From contig JAMCUS010000031.1 of the NCBI GenBank assembly GCA_023379385.1, positions 1 to 32,100 on the forward strand: a stretch of 32,100 nt of DNA, written 5' to 3'. Under the pieces are notes generated by a model. The model made no database searches, was not told the DNA's origin, and worked only from the letters and a program-made list of their open reading frames with translations. This document shows, one piece after another, positions 450 through 17,414 of this stretch. The DNA comes from Thermoplasmatota archaeon. Lineage in GTDB: Archaea > Thermoplasmatota > Thermoplasmata > Lutacidiplasmatales > JAMCUS01. Both the position numbers and the translations under genes were made by a program. Each line of letters starts with the position of its first letter. Position 1 is the first letter of the stretch.

Positions 450-917
450 TTAAGCTTTAGATAAAAATGAATGCATTTGATTTTTAAGCTTCTTAGCAGC
501 ATCAGTATCTATGAATTCATTCATAAAATCCTGCTCGTTTTTATTGATAGCATAGTGATGATATGTATCAGGATCTGTAGGTATTTGATATTTATTTAAC
601 AACGTATTACCAGCACACTTAATTATCCAGTTTTCAAGTTTTTCTTCAAATTCTATAATCATTTTTTTTGAATTATTTTTTGAATTATCATCAAAATATA
701 CGGTAAAAAAGTATTCCGGAATTTTTTGTTTAGTAAGTTGTTTTAAATATGGAGGAATAGCTGCTGTAGGATCCTCATCAATAATTCCGATTGATTTAAC
801 AGATGTTTTTTTTAATTTAGTTATAACATTGCCTTTTCCACCTGCATGTTCATAATCTCTATCAAAACCCAGTGAAGTTATTAATAGTTCATCACGATTG
901 CATTCTATAAAAATCAC
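450..917 (-). CDS. small TOPRIM-like protein, partner of the adjacent ATPase
   Basis: This 155-residue protein is too short for a standard enzyme of known family, but its layout resembles a minimal TOPRIM fold. An N-terminal strand ends in Glu5 (MIFIEC), a glycine-rich turn follows (HAGGKGN, residues 24-30), and then a hydrophobic strand ending in Asp-Glu-Asp-Pro (IGIIDEDP, 43-50). In TOPRIM nucleases and primases the Glu and the DxD pair bind the catalytic metal. The C-terminal half is helical and charged, with no membrane segment. It lies 13 bases downstream of the ATPase gene, so the two are almost certainly co-transcribed and probably act together, as the ATPase and TOPRIM parts do in OLD-like and PARIS-like systems. 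The TOPRIM call is inference from motif order. The gene could instead be a DUF-type partner without nuclease activity. Confidence 0.55.
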   Translation of the reverse strand: MIFIECNRDELLITSLGFDRDYEHAGGKGNVITKLKKTSVKSIGIIDEDPTAAIPPYLKQLTKQKIPEYFFTVYFDDNSKNNSKKMIIEFEEKLENWIIKCAGNTLLNKYQIPTDPDTYHHYAINKNEQDFMNEFIDTDAAKKLKNQMHSFLSKA

Positions 918-930
918 AATAATCAGCCTT

Positions 931-1947
931 TTACATAAATTTATTTAAATTGAAAAAAACATCCATACCCATTACACCGTTTTCATCATACAATTTATCA
1001 ATATCATTTTCAGATAATTTTTTTACTTTAGTTGTATCTTTATCTTTTTCCAGGTATGTAATGAATATACTTCCCTCTTTTTTAGGAACTTTTTCAAGTA
1101 TTGAATAGAACACATAGGGATTATGAGTAGTTACAAAAAATTGATTGGTTTTATCAAGAGCAATCATTTCTGCCAATACTTTGGTGTAATATGGAAATGC
1201 GTATGATTCTGGCTCATCAAAAGTTATAACTGAATTTTTATTTGATTCAATTGCAATCATATGTGAAATAATCCTTAACATTGTATCTGACAATGTTTCT
1301 ATAGGAAAGTTAATGTGAATAGCATCCTCTATTTCTTTCTGAAATTCTATTGTCTTATTTTGCTGATTGATTACTAATTTTAAATTGATGTTTTTAATGT
1401 AGTTTGAAAAAAGATTGCGTGCTCCCTTATTTGTCTGTAGTAATGTGATCATATTAGCTCCATTAGGTGGCAGTAAATAATCAGTAACAATGTATGCTAA
1501 CGATGTAAACGTTTGTTTGTTAAAATCCTTGAATTTGTAAAATTTAAAAGGGCCTGGGTGATATGATGGTGGATTAATAGTAAAATTAATCATCGAACCA
1601 GTAGATATACCAATTTTAGGACCACCTTTCTTATCTATGGACAGGTTGTTGCTATCCCACGACACAGTTATAGCATCGTTATCATACCCAATTTCAAATG
1701 GCTTATCAAATTCATTGTTATAAAAAAGATTGTACAAATTACCATGACGTACAAAATCGTTAAGATGGAAACTGTTAAGAGATATTGTATTATGCTCAAG
1801 CCATGACAAAAAACCGATTGATTCCAATATATTTGTTTTTCCTGTGTTAGGTTCCCCTATAAAAACATTGACTCTGGAACATTCAATATCCAGATCGTTC
1901 ACCGTTTTGAAATGTTTAACATGCAAATTTTTTATAATTAAAATCAC
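931..1947 (-). CDS. AAA/OLD-like (AAA_21-type) ATPase of a putative defence pair
   Basis: Numbered from the GTG at 1947, the protein has an ABC/SMC-like ATPase head. Walker A is GEPNTGKT (31-38), a signature-like LSDTMLRIISH sits near 219-229, Walker B is VITFDEPE (240-247), and a switch histidine lies in TTHNPY (His275). No coiled-coil hinge or fused TOPRIM is present. This is the architecture of the AAA_21/AAA_15 ATPases of OLD-like and abortive-infection systems, which sense infection and control a nuclease partner, here probably the gene 13 bases downstream. An ATG at 1977 also opens the frame. However, a TATA box at 1979-1986 would start the mRNA near 1956, after that ATG. The GTG at 1947 gives MILIIKNLHVKHFK, a typical start for this family. 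The system's target is unknown. Confidence 0.75.
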   Translation of the reverse strand: MILIIKNLHVKHFKTVNDLDIECSRVNVFIGEPNTGKTNILESIGFLSWLEHNTISLNSFHLNDFVRHGNLYNLFYNNEFDKPFEIGYDNDAITVSWDSNNLSIDKKGGPKIGISTGSMINFTINPPSYHPGPFKFYKFKDFNKQTFTSLAYIVTDYLLPPNGANMITLLQTNKGARNLFSNYIKNINLKLVINQQNKTIEFQKEIEDAIHINFPIETLSDTMLRIISHMIAIESNKNSVITFDEPESYAFPYYTKVLAEMIALDKTNQFFVTTHNPYVFYSILEKVPKKEGSIFITYLEKDKDTTKVKKLSENDIDKLYDENGVMGMDVFFNLNKFM

Positions 1948-1978
1948 CTTTTTTAACAAGATATAATTATGTTGCATT

Positions 1979-1986
1979 AATATAAA
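1979..1986 (-). promoter_or_regulatory. TATA box of the ATPase/TOPRIM-like pair
   Basis: TTTATATT on the minus strand predicts transcription starting near 1956, about nine bases before the GTG at 1947. This is the argument for the shorter start of the ATPase gene. Confidence 0.4.
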
Positions 1987-5756: not shown

Positions 5757-5880
5757 TTTTCTTTCTCCAGTATGGGGAGAAAGCTGGAGCATCTTTTACC
5801 TACGCCAGTATTATCTGGATCAGGTTAAAGGGGTCGATATCTGTTGATACCCTCTCAGCTTTTTAAAGCTCCCCCAAGAC
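5757..5880 (-). promoter_or_regulatory. TPP (THI-box) riboswitch with ribosome-site-hiding hairpin
   Basis: The minus strand shows the conserved THI-box pieces in order: GGGGGAGC, a short stem AGCTTT/AAAGCT, CTGAGAGGGT, ACCCCTTTAACCTGATC, then ATAATACTGGCGTAGG. These are the pyrimidine- and pyrophosphate-sensing arms of the TPP aptamer. P1 can form between GTCTT (5880-5876) and AAGAT (5795-5791). Downstream, the GGAG ribosome site (5768-5765) can pair in either of two hairpins: an 8-bp perfect stem (5761-5768 with 5776-5783) or a 6-bp stem (5765-5770 with 5784-5789). GGAGC inside the aptamer (5872-5868) can compete for GCTCC (5790-5786). This suggests translational control: bound TPP releases GCTCC, which then covers the ribosome site. 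The aptamer is certain by sequence; the switching model is inference. Confidence 0.95.
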
Positions 5881-6803
5881 TGAATGTGTAATGGATAGCC
5901 AAGATATAAAGTTTTTTATGGTAGTCATGACGATTATACTTAAAAGAAAATCTAGGAATCCTAACGATTAGAAATGCCTCTTCTAAATAAGCAAGATATC
6001 TTTTTACAGTATGCACACTTCCAATTTCTAACATTTTAGTAATTCTATTCAATGATAGCTCAGTACTAAAGGTATTAAAAAGGTATTTTCCCAACTCATA
6101 CAATTCTGATGAAAATCGTATATTGTATCTTCTCACAATATCTTTAAATATCACACTTTCCACCAGTGTTTTTAAATAGGCAATATGGTCCAAATTTTTT
6201 ACAATTATTTCTGGATATCCACCCTTAATTTGATACTCTTCCAGTTTATTTTTTAAATATGATAAATCCTGTAATTTATTTTTTTCAATATCTCGGGCAT
6301 TTAGAAATTCAATAAATGAAAAAGGAAATATCTTTATCTCGTAATATCTTCCCGTTAAATGGGTAGAGAGTTCTTTGCTTACCAATTTGGAATTGAACCT
6401 ATAATTACTAAATTATAATTCTGTCTTTGAAGTCTATTCACAAATAACTCCCAATTATGTAAATTTTGTATTTCATCCATCAGTAAAAAATGTATGTTTC
6501 CATTAATTGAATAAAGATGTTTGGTTATTTCATCATAATCATTAATCTTGATAAGTGTTTCATCATCAAAATTAACATATGAAAATATTTTATTTTTTAG
6601 CAATTATAAAGCAAAAAAAAATTTCCAGACCTTCTTGGGCCAGTTATCACTTTGATTAGATTTTCATTTAAAACACGTGGATCTAAATCAACATCTCTAG
6701 AAACAAATTTTTGGTTATACATAGATTTGATTTCAAACTTTTGTTTTTCTAATAAAGCAGATATATTTTTTGTCATATTAAAACTATAGTGCATAAAATA
6801 CAT
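5855..6803 (-). pseudogene. decayed AAA_14/DUF4143 ATPase
   Basis: Three overlapping frames together spell one ATPase of the archaeal AAA_14 plus DUF4143 family. Frame one (6803-6597) holds VITGPRRSGNFFLLY, where the usual Walker A lysine (SGKS) has become Asn. Frame two (6603-6379) holds the Walker B region HFLLMDEIQNL and a sensor-like LVIIGS. Frame three (6385-5855) holds the DUF4143 part with KGGYPEI, IFKDIVRRYNI and ending KKLYILAIHYTFS, a worn form of the family's K-Y-x-x-D-x-G motif. Two frameshifts near 6600 and 6382, the lost lysine and the missing C-terminus show it is dead. Its last codons overlap the thiamine operon promoter and riboswitch. Intact members occur in many copies in Thermoplasmata; their role is poorly known. 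Confidence 0.85.
5903..5910 (-). promoter_or_regulatory. TATA box of the thiamine transporter operon
   Basis: TTTATATC on the minus strand is centred 26-27 bases before 5880. The predicted start of transcription therefore coincides with the first base of riboswitch stem P1. The box lies within remnant codons of the upstream ATPase pseudogene. Confidence 0.7.
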
Positions 6804-11909: not shown

Positions 11910-12542
11910 TTAATAAGGATTCTCAAGCTTTCCTGAATCCGCTGCCTCCTTATACTCTTTTACGAATTCCATAACTATCCTAGCTGTGCGCTTATCATAT
12001 ACTTTAAGATAGCGTCTCAATTTTTTTGTGTTTACTGCCCTTAAAAGCCCGCTATAGTTTTGTATCGCAAGTTTAACCTTGTAGTAGAAGAGATCTATGA
12101 GCGTCTTTTCGGGATCGGATACCAGCACCTTCATCGTTCCATATCTAACTACATCAAATCCAAAAAAGTATTTTGCAGACATATGGTGAACGAATATTCT
12201 GTCCTTCGGGTCGTCAAATATGCTGACGTTAGAGGTACGCACCTTTTTGATTGTGATTATGTCGGGTCTAGAATTCTGCGTCCACAACTCCCTTATTGTC
12301 AACGCAGACAGCAGCCCGTAATAAAATGGGCTATACGAGAAGCCTGATACCATATCGTCCTTTTTGAAGGTGTATACTCCCTTCCTTAGTGCATAGAGTT
12401 TGCCATTGCTCTTCATATATGATAGGAGTCTTGTAAGATTCGCTGCTTTTATCTTTCTATCGGTAAAATAGAGCTTGAGATCCCTACGGGTAAAGACAGG
12501 GTAGCTTGAAAAGTGATCTATTATGTCTTTAATTATTGTCAT
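11910..12542 (-). CDS. AbiEi-type antitoxin / winged-helix regulator
   Basis: This 210-residue protein begins with a winged helix (FTRRDLKLYF, then LTRLLSYMKSNGKLYALRKGVYTF, about 17-60). It continues into the alpha/beta region seen in AbiEi antitoxins (FYYGLLSALTIRELW, FVHHMSAKYFFGF, VSDPEKTLIDLFYY around 140-155). In type IV AbiE systems this protein counteracts the AbiEii nucleotidyltransferase without binding it and represses its own operon at inverted repeats. Its start overlaps the toxin's end by 14 bases and is preceded by GAGGTGG, showing coupling. The order is toxin first, the reverse of the classic abiE operon. A perfect palindrome over the promoter is the likely binding site. Function is inferred by family and by the neighbour. 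Confidence 0.8.
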   Translation of the reverse strand: MTIIKDIIDHFSSYPVFTRRDLKLYFTDRKIKAANLTRLLSYMKSNGKLYALRKGVYTFKKDDMVSGFSYSPFYYGLLSALTIRELWTQNSRPDIITIKKVRTSNVSIFDDPKDRIFVHHMSAKYFFGFDVVRYGTMKVLVSDPEKTLIDLFYYKVKLAIQNYSGLLRAVNTKKLRRYLKVYDKRTARIVMEFVKEYKEAADSGKLENPY

Positions 12543-13215
12543 TCAACCACCTCTCTACCCTCTCCATCATAAGCTCAAACGAAGGTGGCAGACCAGCTAG
12601 GATCAAATGCCCCAAGCTTCTTATATCCTGTGGCGGGTTCTCTTTTATTCTTCCAATCAGCGACCTTAGATCCTTTACAGTTCTCTCGTTGCCTTTTTTA
12701 ATTAAAGATACCAGATAATAAATATCATATAAATCATGCACTTCTGGATGCTTAAACCCTCCGGTGCTCGTTAACTTATCGTTATATGCGGCTATCTTCT
12801 CGTCAAGGAGTTCCGCAGGACTGAGCGTCAGCACTACGATTTTGCTGTCATCAACCCTTGTATATTCCGCCTGTGTCCCCTTTTTGTACCTGAAATTGAT
12901 GTCTATTTTCATTTTCACATTCAACTCTACTAGAAAGTGCGTCGTGTCTGTAGAGTTCTCATAGTCCTTTTCCTTGATTACAAACCCCGAATCCTTCAAG
13001 AATTTTGAAAGCTCTTTATAGTACTGCATTTTCTCCTTAGATGTTTTTGCATTCAGATAGAAATCCAGATTCCGTGAGAATCTGTTCCCACCATGACACC
13101 GCCATATCGATGTACCGCCGTGGAACACTAAGCCATTATATTTGTTATATAAAAGTTCTACCAGAATATCCTCCAAACGTGCTCTCTCTAACTGCGAAAT
13201 GTCCCGTATTTCCAT
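12529..13215 (-). CDS. AbiEii-type nucleotidyltransferase toxin
   Basis: Numbered from the ATG at 13215, this 228-residue protein has the AbiEii/AbiGii nucleotidyltransferase core. It shows LVFHGGTSIWRCHGGNRFS (29-47), the acidic pair position (NLDFYL, 49-54), a third acid in KMKIDINF (Asp105), and LSPAELLDEKIAAY, with HDLYDIYYL near the middle of the helical domain. These toxins transfer nucleotides and slow growth; related enzymes modify tRNA. The usual RFSEDLD reads RFSRNLD, so the first catalytic carboxylate is Asn49, which may weaken catalysis. The frame opens at 13263, but the ATG at 13215 matches the family start and the promoter spacing. It is the first gene of a two-gene operon with the AbiEi-like gene. 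Confidence 0.8.
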   Translation of the reverse strand: MEIRDISQLERARLEDILVELLYNKYNGLVFHGGTSIWRCHGGNRFSRNLDFYLNAKTSKEKMQYYKELSKFLKDSGFVIKEKDYENSTDTTHFLVELNVKMKIDINFRYKKGTQAEYTRVDDSKIVVLTLSPAELLDEKIAAYNDKLTSTGGFKHPEVHDLYDIYYLVSLIKKGNERTVKDLRSLIGRIKENPPQDIRSLGHLILAGLPPSFELMMERVERWLNDNN

Positions 13216-13230
13216 AAAATCACAACTACA

Positions 13231-13256
13231 TATTATTACATATTTATGTAATAATA
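13231..13256. promoter_or_regulatory. perfect 26-bp palindrome over the AbiE operon promoter
   Basis: Two 12-base arms, TATTATTACATA (13231-13242) and TATGTAATAATA (13245-13256), are exact reverse complements separated by TT. The centre reads ATAAATAT on the minus strand, centred 28 bases from the ATG at 13215, so it can also serve as the TATA box of a nearly leaderless mRNA. A protein bound here would directly block the basal transcription factors. AbiEi proteins are known to bind inverted repeats in their promoters. Confidence 0.7.
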
Positions 13257-13286
13257 TACACATATATATTTAAATACATTTCGATG

Positions 13287-13422: not shown

Positions 13423-16400
13423 ATGTTTGTTTTTCATACCATTTGGATAAATGATGGTAGTAAGGATAAAATATATGTATGGATAGAATCGTCAGACATG
13501 TTTTATATGACTAGAAAGGTAAGGCCGCATCATCCATTTGCAATTCCTGACTATCAATTATCAGAACTCTTTAAAGCGATATTTCAGGATTCTAAACGTT
13601 ACAGATGGGAAACTGAATCTGTTACGTTAATATTGCCAACTGTAGGTAACATGCCTTTGCCGTCTAAAGAACTGTTATTAAATAACCATATATCTGATTA
13701 TACCAGTGCTGAACTGAAAGAATGGATGGTGAATTGTTATACACTGTCCGGTATAGATGCACTGAATTTTCTTCTTGGATTGCCTGAACAACCACCTGCC
13801 AACAGTGCTTACGGTTCCACACTGAAATTCTGGAAGCTTGTTGCTAAATTCACTATGGAACTGCTTGTCAAACAGAATTTTATACCTGTAATAAAGGAGC
13901 TGGATCATTCAAATTCAGAAAAGGTCATACCATTATGGCAGGCATATATAGACGATGAAAACGATGCACGATTAAAGATGCTTGCTTCTATGATGCCACC
14001 TGTGGCAAGATCGTTTGTATTGAATAATGTGCAACAATCAGACACGTCAATAAACATGGTAAAAAATTTTGTAAATTTAATGATCGATTCATTTATAAGG
14101 GAAAGTATCAATGATAATCCTGTTCATTATAGAAAATATTCAAAAATGAAGATAGAGGGCTACAATGATATATTACCAGCATTCATATCAAAAACCAGAA
14201 CCTATTATAACAAAAGCCATGATGAAAAGAGATTTTACGAACAGCTAGCTACATGGTCCGGTACAATAACTGATGCTATCAATTCACCTTTCAAAACATG
14301 TTTCAGACTGGAGCCGCCCGAGGATGAAGAAAATGATACAGGTCAATGGAGAATTTCGTTCCATCTGCAGGCCCATGACGATCCAACAGTTCTCATATCT
14401 GCAGATAAGGTCTGGAACAGCTCGTCATCAGTTATAAAATTTATAAATAGGAAGTTCGAAAATCCTCATGAAAGACTGCTGAGCGACCTGGCTAGAGCAT
14501 CAAAAATTTACCCTGTTCTGAATAATGCGCTGGAGCAACCGGCACCCACAGAGGTTGGATTGCAGGATGATCAGGCATATACCTTTATTAAAGAAGTCGC
14601 ACCTCTGTTACAGCAGAGCGGATTTGGAATAATATTTCCTTCCTGGTATGTCAAAAATATTATAACACCCAAAATAAAGTTAAAAATGAAGACTGAGTCT
14701 TCGTTAAGCAGTGGTCTATTAGGACTGAACCAGCTTGCGACCTTTGACTGGGAGATAGCCATCGGTGATGAGCATTTAACGCTATCAGAATTTGAAAAAC
14801 TGGTGGATCTCAAGGTACCTCTTGTAAATATAAATGGGAGGTGGGTGGAGGTCAATGCATCAAATATACAGAAAGCCATAGACTTTTTTACAAAGAAAAA
14901 AAATATTACAGTAGGCGAGGCTCTCAGATTGAATCTGAGCAATAACAGTAAGGAGACAGGCCTTCCATTGGGTGAAATAGAGGCAGATGGATGGCTTGGC
15001 AATTTCCTTTCCAACATAGGTAAAGAGTCGTATACAGATATAGAGAAGATTGATAAGATTAATCATTTCACAGGTACTCTCAGACCATATCAGAATTATG
15101 GTGTTGAATGGCTGACTTTTTTAAGAAAGCTCGGATTGGGTGGCTGTTTAGCAGATGATATGGGACTTGGAAAGACAATAGAGATACTCGCAATGCTGCA
15201 ACATCATAAAAATAATAAAGAGATATGGGGGCCCTCTCTTCTTATATGCCCCATGTCTATAGTTGGTAACTGGGAAAGGGAATTGAAGAACTTCACACCT
15301 GAGTTAAAATATATGGTACACCATGGTGGAGAAAGATTATCAGGAAATAAATTCATGAAAGCAATTAAAAATGTAGATCTGGTAATTACCACATATTCCA
15401 TAGCCTATCGTGATGAAAAACACCTTTCAGGTCCAGAATGGAATTATATAATCCTAGATGAAGCGCAGAATATAAAGAATGTGCATACCAAACAGCGTAT
15501 AGCCATTAAGAAATTCAAAGGATTGCACAAAATAACCCTTACAGGAACGCCTGTAGAAAACAGGTTGAATGATCTATGGTCAATAATTGATTTTATAAAT
15601 CCAGGCTATCTCGGAACCATAGAGGAGTTCAAGGAGAACTATGGTACCAGCATAGAGAGATATCATGATCAGGAAAGAACGGATACTTTGAGAAGGCTGC
15701 TATCCCCTTTTATCCTGAGAAGATTAAAAACAGATCCTAAGATTATCAGTGATCTACCCCAAAAAATGGAGATGAAAGTCTACTGCAACTTAACAAAAGA
15801 ACAGGCAACCCTGTACGGATCTGTCGTTAAAGACATGCTTGATAAAATAGAGAATTCAGAAGGCATTACCAGAAAGGGGCTGGTTCTAAGCACACTGTTG
15901 AAGTTAAAACAGGTATGCAATCATCCTGCCCTGTTTTTGCATGATCAGAGCAAGATTATAAACAGATCAGGAAAGGTGGAAAGGCTTGTAGAGATGCTGG
16001 AAGAGGCTATATCGGAAGGAGATAAATCACTTGTATTCACGCAATATGCAGAAATGGGCACAATATTGCAGGAGCATCTTCAGAACAGGCTGAACTGCGA
16101 GGTGCTCTACCTGCATGGTTCCACACCAAAAAAGCAACGGGATATCGTGATAAACCATTTTCAATCCGGTAAAGAATCAGCTCCCGTCTTTATTCTTTCT
16201 ATAAAAGCAGGGGGGCAGGGTCTTAATCTTACGGCTGCTAACAGGGTATTTCACTTTGATAGATGGTGGAACCCTGCTGTAGAAAATCAAGCGACGGATA
16301 GAGCTTTCAGAATAGGACAGAAAAAAAATGTGATCGTACATAAATACATTTCAGCAGGAACACTGGAAGAGAAGATAGATCAGATGCTGGAGCAGAAAAA

Positions 16401-16512
16401 AAACCTTGCTGATAAAATCGTTGGTAGCTTTGATAACAAAATAACGGAATTATCTACCGTTGAATTAAAGAAGTTACTTACATTGAGCAAGGATTCCCAT
16501 AGAGGTGGGTGA
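13423..16512 (+). CDS. SWI2/SNF2-family helicase-like ATPase
   Basis: This 1029-residue protein has a long N-terminal region (1-540, including the SNF2-associated part around LGLNQLATFDWEIAIGDEHLTLSEF) followed by a two-lobed SNF2 motor. Motif Ia region: TLRPYQNYGVEWL; Walker A ADDMGLGKT (577-585); DEAQ box (679-682) in place of the usual DEAH; then LTGTPVENRL, LRRLKTDP, and motif VI QATDRAFRIGQ (956-966). SNF2 motors move along double-stranded DNA and remodel protein-DNA complexes. This branch (RapA/HepA-like with SNF2_assoc) is common in bacteria and archaea and often neighbours a SWIM protein, as here. It is probably leaderless with a TATA-like AAAATATT at 13395-13402. Role: DNA remodelling, possibly in transcription, repair or defence; which one cannot be read from sequence. 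Confidence 0.9.
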   Translation: MFVFHTIWINDGSKDKIYVWIESSDMFYMTRKVRPHHPFAIPDYQLSELFKAIFQDSKRYRWETESVTLILPTVGNMPLPSKELLLNNHISDYTSAELKEWMVNCYTLSGIDALNFLLGLPEQPPANSAYGSTLKFWKLVAKFTMELLVKQNFIPVIKELDHSNSEKVIPLWQAYIDDENDARLKMLASMMPPVARSFVLNNVQQSDTSINMVKNFVNLMIDSFIRESINDNPVHYRKYSKMKIEGYNDILPAFISKTRTYYNKSHDEKRFYEQLATWSGTITDAINSPFKTCFRLEPPEDEENDTGQWRISFHLQAHDDPTVLISADKVWNSSSSVIKFINRKFENPHERLLSDLARASKIYPVLNNALEQPAPTEVGLQDDQAYTFIKEVAPLLQQSGFGIIFPSWYVKNIITPKIKLKMKTESSLSSGLLGLNQLATFDWEIAIGDEHLTLSEFEKLVDLKVPLVNINGRWVEVNASNIQKAIDFFTKKKNITVGEALRLNLSNNSKETGLPLGEIEADGWLGNFLSNIGKESYTDIEKIDKINHFTGTLRPYQNYGVEWLTFLRKLGLGGCLADDMGLGKTIEILAMLQHHKNNKEIWGPSLLICPMSIVGNWERELKNFTPELKYMVHHGGERLSGNKFMKAIKNVDLVITTYSIAYRDEKHLSGPEWNYIILDEAQNIKNVHTKQRIAIKKFKGLHKITLTGTPVENRLNDLWSIIDFINPGYLGTIEEFKENYGTSIERYHDQERTDTLRRLLSPFILRRLKTDPKIISDLPQKMEMKVYCNLTKEQATLYGSVVKDMLDKIENSEGITRKGLVLSTLLKLKQVCNHPALFLHDQSKIINRSGKVERLVEMLEEAISEGDKSLVFTQYAEMGTILQEHLQNRLNCEVLYLHGSTPKKQRDIVINHFQSGKESAPVFILSIKAGGQGLNLTAANRVFHFDRWWNPAVENQATDRAFRIGQKKNVIVHKYISAGTLEEKIDQMLEQKKNLADKIVGSFDNKITELSTVELKKLLTLSKDSHRGG

Positions 16513-16514
16513 AT

Positions 16515-17414
16515 ATGAGCAGTTATGATTACTGGGATAACTATCCCAGATACCCAAAATCAACTCCCAGAACAGTAAAAAACGGAATAAGTACTAAAAG
16601 TAAACATGGAGCTATAGGCAATACCTGGTGGTCAAAAAAATGGCTTGAAGTACTTGAACGAATAGGCCTGGGAACCAGATTATCACGGGGAAGGAGCTAT
16701 GCCAGAAGAGGACAGGTAGTATCAATGGAGATGGATCACGGTGTTGTAAAATCAAAGGTACAGGGATCACAGGTAAAGCCATATAATGTTATCATAAAAT
16801 TAAAAATCATTGATGTCGCAAGTTGGGATAAAATAGAGACAATTCTTGTATCCAAAGCGATCTTTCTTGCAAAATTATTGGCCGGAGAAATGCCTGAAAA
16901 TATAGAAGAGGTATTTAGAGATGCAGGAATAGATCTGTTTCCCACTGATAAGAAAGATCTTGAAACGGATTGTTCATGCCCTGACTGGGAGAATCCATGC
17001 AAACACATAGCTGCCGTATACTATATAATGGCAGAAAAATTTGATGAGGACCCTTTTTTACTATTCAAGTTAAGGGGAGCTGATAAAGAAGAGCTTATTA
17101 AATCACTGAGGGAGAAACGTGTAACAATCAAGCAGGGTAATGAACCGGTAAATACAGACACTGTAAATAATAATAAGAAAGAGCATGTAGAATCTGTTGA
17201 TAAACCGTTGAAGGAACTTGTTGATGTATTCTGGGGGTATGGTAATGAACTTGAGCAATTCAGTGTGGACCCAACACCTCCTGAGATTGATAATGCTATT
17301 TTAAAAAGAATGGGAAAGTCTCCTTTTACAGTCAATAAAAAAGATTTGAGTGAAATATTTGCTGAAATGTATACACTGATAAGAAAAAAGGCAGAAAAAA
17401 AGATACTGGAATAA
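16515..17414 (+). CDS. SWIM zinc-finger protein, SNF2 partner
   Basis: This protein of 299 residues contains a SWIM zinc finger CSCPDWENPCKH (Cys153, Cys155, Cys162, His164), i.e. the CxCx(n)CxH pattern. It opens with YWDNYPRYPKSTPRTVKNGI and has WWSKKWLEVLERIGLGTRLSRGRSYARRGQV, the conserved N-terminal block of SWIM proteins that accompany SNF2 helicases. SWIM fingers bind DNA or protein. The middle is charged and likely disordered (about 205-230); the last 90 residues look helical. A GTG at 16509 also opens the frame and overlaps the SNF2 stop, but GGTG at 16504-16507 sits ideally for the ATG at 16515. The tight junction implies a shared mRNA and probably one complex with the helicase. Confidence 0.85.
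   Translation: MSSYDYWDNYPRYPKSTPRTVKNGISTKSKHGAIGNTWWSKKWLEVLERIGLGTRLSRGRSYARRGQVVSMEMDHGVVKSKVQGSQVKPYNVIIKLKIIDVASWDKIETILVSKAIFLAKLLAGEMPENIEEVFRDAGIDLFPTDKKDLETDCSCPDWENPCKHIAAVYYIMAEKFDEDPFLLFKLRGADKEELIKSLREKRVTIKQGNEPVNTDTVNNNKKEHVESVDKPLKELVDVFWGYGNELEQFSVDPTPPEIDNAILKRMGKSPFTVNKKDLSEIFAEMYTLIRKKAEKKILE

Follow-up and report, generated by a model that had tools for sequence, protein, structure and literature searches.

The window, i.e., the whole stretch of 32,100 nucleotides analyzed here, carries a pair of genes at the contig end, both on the minus strand. The upstream gene (positions 931 to 1977) was called as an open reading frame for a 348-amino-acid OLD/RecF-type ABC ATPase, whose true start, judging by the alignment, may lie about 10 codons further in, at a GTG. 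Thirteen bases downstream lies the gene for a small TOPRIM-like protein (450 to 917, 155 amino acids), which starts with GTG and has the N terminus V1-I-F-I-E5-C-x2-D9. These ORF calls agree with an earlier note on this DNA, which had described the two genes and the gap between them. The GC content of the pair is 28.6%, compared to 35.6% in the rest of the window. The earlier note had also placed a transposase gene next to the pair, but this could not be confirmed: the ORF concerned (2 to 286) runs off the end of the contig and gives no Pfam match. No Hma, R-M, or MZA-like gene directly adjoins the window's own copy.

Other genes in the window are worth recording. An AbiEi/AbiEii-type toxin-antitoxin pair (11910 to 13263, minus strand; AbiEii PF08843, E = 5e-17; PADLOC AbiEi, 4e-14) is located 10 kb away and is a second defense-type module on the same contig as the ATPase/small-protein pair. 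The plus-strand region 13423 to 17414 begins with an SNF2 helicase with DUF3670 that matches the PADLOC DpdE/ZorD models (E = 3e-136); many helicases of this sort have no defense role. After the helicase, an ORF at 16509 to 17414 resembles a SWIM zinc-finger protein by eye, and the remnant of a truncated archaeal AAA_14/DUF4143 ATPase is found at 5855 to 6385 on the minus strand.

The ATPase scores above the curated Pfam cutoffs for both AAA_21 (45.2 bits; cutoff, 27) and AAA_15 (42.4 bits; cutoff, 32.1), and its closest solved structure is the Thermus OLD protein TsOLD (6p74, E = 6.5e-6). An alignment with relatives (24 sequences in all) shows that its motifs are highly conserved. On the minus strand, these are the Walker A motif G41-E-P-N-T-G-K47-T48 (GEPNTGKT, 1834 to 1857), with G41, P43, N44, G46, and K47 in 24/24; the ABC-signature-like S230-D-T232 (1282 to 1290), with S in 24/24 and D and T each in 22/24; the Walker B/catalytic glutamate motif D254-E255-P-E257 (1207 to 1218), with E255, P256, and E257 in 24/24; and the switch histidine H285 (1123 to 1125), also in 24/24. 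The window protein thus has the Walker A and B motifs, signature, and switch histidine of an OLD-type ABC ATPase, and the AAA_21-type ATPase that the earlier note read from these motifs is confirmed. The Walker B aspartate is replaced by glutamate (EEPE) in 23 of the 24 aligned ATPases, e.g., L003:5024-6004, whereas the window copy reads DEPE. The best PADLOC model is AbiLi (2e-18), with AriA, NsnB, AbiLi, and HEC-01A all giving similar scores, so that AriA is not singled out. In the phylogenetic tree, the ATPases of the pair form one clade (support, 100/99), separate from the HEC-01-associated ATPases and the fused OLDs, a placement to be read with caution for long branches.

Predicted metal site and fold of the small protein

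The small protein has no Pfam family at E ≤ 10, no PADLOC match, and no usable NCBIfam match; a candidate identity as FrhD, for which there was a sub-threshold match (E = 0.1), was discarded. Conservation over 27 aligned relatives points to a set of predicted metal ligands: E5-x3-D9 after strand 1 (891 to 905, minus strand; E in 27/27 and D in 25/27), D47-E48-D49 after strand 3 (771 to 779, minus strand; 27/27), and, as a predicted further ligand position, E95 within P-x-L-E-x-W (633 to 635, minus strand; 27/27). C6 is nearly invariant as well. The earlier note had singled out Glu5, a GGKG turn, and a D-E-D strand end; the acidic residues hold up as invariant, but in GGKG only K28 is well kept (22/27).

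OLD nucleases bind two metals through E-x3-D/E, DxD, and a later (S/T/D)-x-E, which in TsOLD correspond to E377, D381, D431, D433, S478, and E480 (PMC7049728). The spacing of E5-x3-D9 equals that of TsOLD E377-x3-D381, and D47-x-D49 equals D431-x-D433 (PMC7049728). E95 comes in the right order for the last OLD ligand and its motif aligns with the RloB “NPDFEFW,” while the position two before it (S/T/D in OLD) is not conserved; we infer that E95 is the equivalent of TsOLD E480. E5, D9, D47, D49, and E95 together provide the E-x3-[DE], DxD, and later acidic residue expected of TOPRIM ligands. Two other copies have unusual features. In one (L030:1474-1944, minus strand), an in-frame TAG falls at the conserved W97. 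A more distant ATPase/small-protein pair (L130:1483-3104, minus strand) seems to have “LLFDSE” as its DED motif and is possibly intermediate to other TOPRIM effectors.

Confident AlphaFold2 models were obtained for the window protein (pLDDT 85, pTM 0.81) and for a Methanoperedens relative (pLDDT 91, pTM 0.86), the latter being the better of the two. Both have a beta-alpha-beta-alpha-beta core with acidic residues ending strands 1 (E) and 3 (DxD), and extra strands are found after the DxD strand, ahead of the E95 helix. In a Foldseek search of the PDB, the window model has GajA at ranks 1 and 3 (E = 0.14 and 0.33; probability, 0.72 and 0.38; top TM, 0.50), which is not significant, and the Methanoperedens model has no TOPRIM match. 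Only noise came from Foldseek against the viral library and from searching the PDB by hmmsearch with a profile of the small protein.

Profile-profile comparison is the stronger evidence for the identity of the small protein. We compared hhalign scores to a null of 150 column shuffles plus the reversed profile. Against DUF4435, the small-protein profile scores 36.3 (P = 4.5e-5; shuffled maximum, 21.9; reversed, 15.7), and against HEC-01B, it scores 29.3 (P = 6.7e-4; shuffled maximum, 20.5; reversed, 14.5); as a yardstick, known TOPRIM families score 33 to 41 against one another. The likeness to fused OLD TOPRIMs is at the motif level only (18.2 versus a shuffled maximum of 18.1), as is the weak match to one RloB sequence (P = 0.023). 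In the DUF4435 alignment, the small-protein segments VEC..D, H..GKG.V, and IGIIDEDP are in register with EG..D, [GS]KENVI, and IVDRDF, and the three DUF4435 proteins tested are themselves PADLOC AriB matches. The TOPRIM assignment of AriB also rested on a weak HHpred match (PMC9122126). The core topology, with the E after strand 1 and the DxD after strand 3, is consistent with the TOPRIM-like protein of the earlier note and, together with the register of the N-terminal motifs with DUF4435/AriB, tends to favor it, while Foldseek gives no significant TOPRIM match. We read the small protein as most likely a minimal TOPRIM domain, probably a nuclease.

Pairing, spread, and genomic surroundings

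The two genes form an operon that is rarely broken up. Of 33 distinct loci that could be assessed, 32 have them adjacent, in the same order and on the same strand, usually with an overlap of a few bases; one further locus (L127) was left out of this count because its contig ends there. This pairing is far above chance, and it is the outcome favorable to the earlier note on the question of whether the small protein co-occurs with the ATPase. The single exception is L038, where a reverse-transcriptase gene (RVT_1, E = 1.9e-42) takes the place of the ATPase and the small ORF is also shortened. At this locus (L038:242-1728), the shortened ORF overlaps the start of the HmaC/DUF499 gene.

Seven relatives were found in a contig scan, from Hydrothermarchaeota, Methanoperedens, Methanothrix, two Thermoplasmata, and two bacteria (one of them Desantisbacteria). 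In whole-genome searches, the pair occurs in 4 of 300 genomes from the class to which the window belongs (its own genome counted), 20 of 345 genomes of the Methanoperedens phylum (about 6%), and 3 of 19 and 4 of 23 genomes of two other groups. Its occurrence is thus patchy (1 to 17% of genomes); it is absent from same-order relatives of the window genome, among those listed, and the copies from Thermoplasmata and from bacteria fall at scattered places in the ATPase tree. The earlier idea of a compact archaeal member stands insofar as the pair is compact, mostly archaeal, and kept together, but it is not strictly archaeal, given the bacterial loci L005, L008, and L040. For close relative pairs, dN/dS is 0.09 to 0.21 for both genes, indicating purifying selection and hence that both are maintained as proteins. 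In about one-fourth of the copies, the reading frame of one of the two genes is broken, which may reflect decay or assembly error.

Most copies are lone two-gene cassettes between housekeeping-like genes (trp, hyp, and accC, by eye), outside defense islands. Three independent lineages have the locus within or bordering an Hma operon: in L008, HmaB and HmaC flank it, and in L002 and L038, HmaC comes directly after it, L038 being the locus without the ATPase. The window copy is outside any Hma locus. In L063 and L067, the pair adjoins HsdR and a YgjP-like gene, with HsdS (type I R-M) also present in L063; we counted these as one event because the synteny is common to both. In L060, it stands in divergent orientation beside MzaB/MzaC-like genes (a Z1/HATPase locus). 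Clustering with defense genes, which the earlier note had proposed to survey, is therefore seen in the Hma, type I R-M, and MZA-like loci, with most copies standing alone. Both genes are also carried by a pleolipovirus, Geoglobus ahangari pleomorphic virus 1, between two winged-helix regulators, and this viral sequence was also found in a whole genome (L029). Searches of the viral-contig collections gave no further relatives, and the plasmid collection gave none. Placement in such loci (Hma, type I R-M, Z1/HATPase), together with carriage by a virus, fits a defense role.

Proposed function and its alternatives

The two genes are kept together, occur in anti-virus clusters, and are found on an archaeal virus; the pair is therefore probably a compact, uncatalogued relative of the PARIS/HEC-01/AbiL defense modules. 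We consider it likely that it is a self-contained two-gene anti-virus or anti-plasmid module of the “OLD-ABC ATPase plus separate TOPRIM” kind, whose TOPRIM protein is unusually small (∼150 amino acids). The pairing, the AriB/DUF4435 profile match, and the defense-locus context support the earlier suggestion that an OLD-like ATPase and a TOPRIM-like protein make up a possible minimal defense module. Some points count against the defense or TOPRIM reading: no significant Foldseek match, an OLD-TOPRIM hhalign score at the shuffle maximum, mostly lone copies, and broken frames. The archaeal OLD protein Cran1, which has a role in the cell cycle and not in defense (PMC12796447), also counts against a defense reading.

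What might such a module do? In PARIS, a hexamer of AriA sequesters AriB, a trigger frees AriB, and the dimeric AriB cuts tRNA (PMC11455837; PMC12409363). In AbiL-like pairs, a toxic TOPRIM_OLD partner is neutralized by an AAA protein (PMC10440598). The best reading of the pair, by analogy, is that it works like PARIS or AbiL. By comparison with PARIS, AbiL, and OLD, an ATP-bound ring of the ATPase would hold the TOPRIM protein inactive in a complex while monitoring for a sign of infection. A trigger would then release or activate the TOPRIM protein, which would dimerize and make two-metal-ion cuts in nucleic acid, either host tRNA, as for AriB, or DNA, as for OLD and GajA. These cuts would halt both growth and the virus, i.e., abortive infection.

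A toxin-antitoxin-like explanation would make do with less, with the ATPase merely neutralizing a toxic TOPRIM nuclease: the cassette would thereby secure its own persistence or that of the element carrying it, and it would not sense viruses at all. An autonomous, virus-borne two-gene cassette that often stands alone among housekeeping genes would suit such selfish maintenance, as would the neutralization of the TOPRIM_OLD partner in AbiL-like pairs (PMC10440598). However, repeated embedding in multi-gene defense operons (HmaB-[pair]-HmaC) and the conserved ATPase machinery suggest a conditional sensor, and PARIS, the nearest studied relative, is non-toxic on deletion of either gene (PMC9122126). 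On balance, we regard the explanation as unlikely.

We see a similarly low but slightly smaller chance that the small protein is not an active nuclease but a divergent, Rossmann-like partner that regulates or binds the ATPase. The extra strands after the DxD strand and the Foldseek results, with no significant TOPRIM nuclease match, would allow this, yet it is precisely at the acidic metal-ligand positions that the residues are invariant, and the AriB/DUF4435 profile-profile match is well above the shuffles. Least probable, and in our view very improbable, is a cellular DNA-maintenance or cell-cycle factor like Cran1. Cran1, an OLD ATPase/nickase of archaea, acts in the cell cycle (PMC12796447), and the pair's ATPase is also RecF-like, but the Cran1 clade is conserved and vertical, while the pair is confined to a minority of genomes, is missing from the listed same-order relatives, has scattered Thermoplasmata and bacterial copies, and has one viral copy.

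Archaeal immunity is sparsely catalogued (PMC12988326), and the pair has been missed by Pfam, NCBIfam, and PADLOC despite its presence in ∼6% of sampled genomes in one archaeal phylum. An active pair would reveal how small a TOPRIM domain suffices for an abortive-infection effector, provide a compact model for the control of TOPRIM effectors by OLD-type ATPases, and add a defense module borne by an archaeal virus. It is tempting to go further, and we tentatively raise the possibility, short of an even chance, of a distinct, archaeal-centered defense system: a ∼150-amino-acid TOPRIM effector in a mobile, autonomous two-gene cassette. Within Hma or type I R-M operons, this cassette would form a second defensive line, and at least one pleolipovirus would deploy it against rival viruses.

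Comparison with known systems

PARIS (AriA plus AriB/DUF4435, class 4 OLD) resembles the pair in having adjacent genes for an OLD-type ABC ATPase and a TOPRIM effector, with a related DUF4435 profile. Its detection rule calls for an AAA_15 or AAA_21 ATPase (32/27 bits) and an adjacent DUF4435 (PF14491) above 27 bits (PMC9122126). The window ATPase exceeds these scores (AAA_21 and AAA_15 at 45.2 and 42.4 bits), but the small protein lacks a DUF4435 match, and for this reason we do not file the pair as PARIS. The AriB model also spans 236 positions, compared to an effector of ∼150 amino acids here, and PARIS features an anti-restriction-protein trigger and tRNA cleavage by AriB. At archaeal DUF4435 loci, the pair's ATPase profile matches an AriA-like neighbor in 1 of 17. 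One set of archaeal DUF4435/AriB-like genes (L108 to L121) has no adjoining OLD-type ATPase by the A2 profile, unlike PARIS.

HEC-01 (Hma-embedded candidate 1 of PADLOC) also has an ATPase gene followed by a TOPRIM-like gene, and its Hma embedding is seen for the pair as well; beyond the HEC-01B profile likeness (hhalign P = 6.7e-4), one small-protein relative matches at E = 0.032. However, the HEC-01B model has 204 positions, the ATPases beside HEC-01B are a separate supported group, and in PADLOC the window small protein has no HEC-01B match, while the ATPase matches HEC-01A among many. AbiL/RloAB (AbiLi plus AbiLii/RloB) likewise combines an ATPase and a TOPRIM_OLD effector, with a likeness between P-x-L-E-x-W and the RloB motif, but the small protein has no RloB (PF13707) or AbiLii match in Pfam or PADLOC. 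We place the pair outside HEC-01 and AbiL because its second protein matches neither system's effector model.

OLD and Gabija GajA share the same two domains and the same metal-ligand spacing, but in these the ATPase and TOPRIM are fused in one protein, and the TOPRIM profile match is not above shuffles. The OLD-ABC/TOPRIM modules of BREX and BREX-related systems are like the pair in being recruited beside DUF499/HmaC ATPase and N6-MTase genes, and such TOPRIM-linked modules have been proposed as backup effectors (PMC12839542). Altogether, the pair is a compact, mostly archaeal variant of the kind that combines an OLD-ABC ATPase with a separate TOPRIM protein, and it is absent from Pfam, NCBIfam, and PADLOC, the libraries searched.
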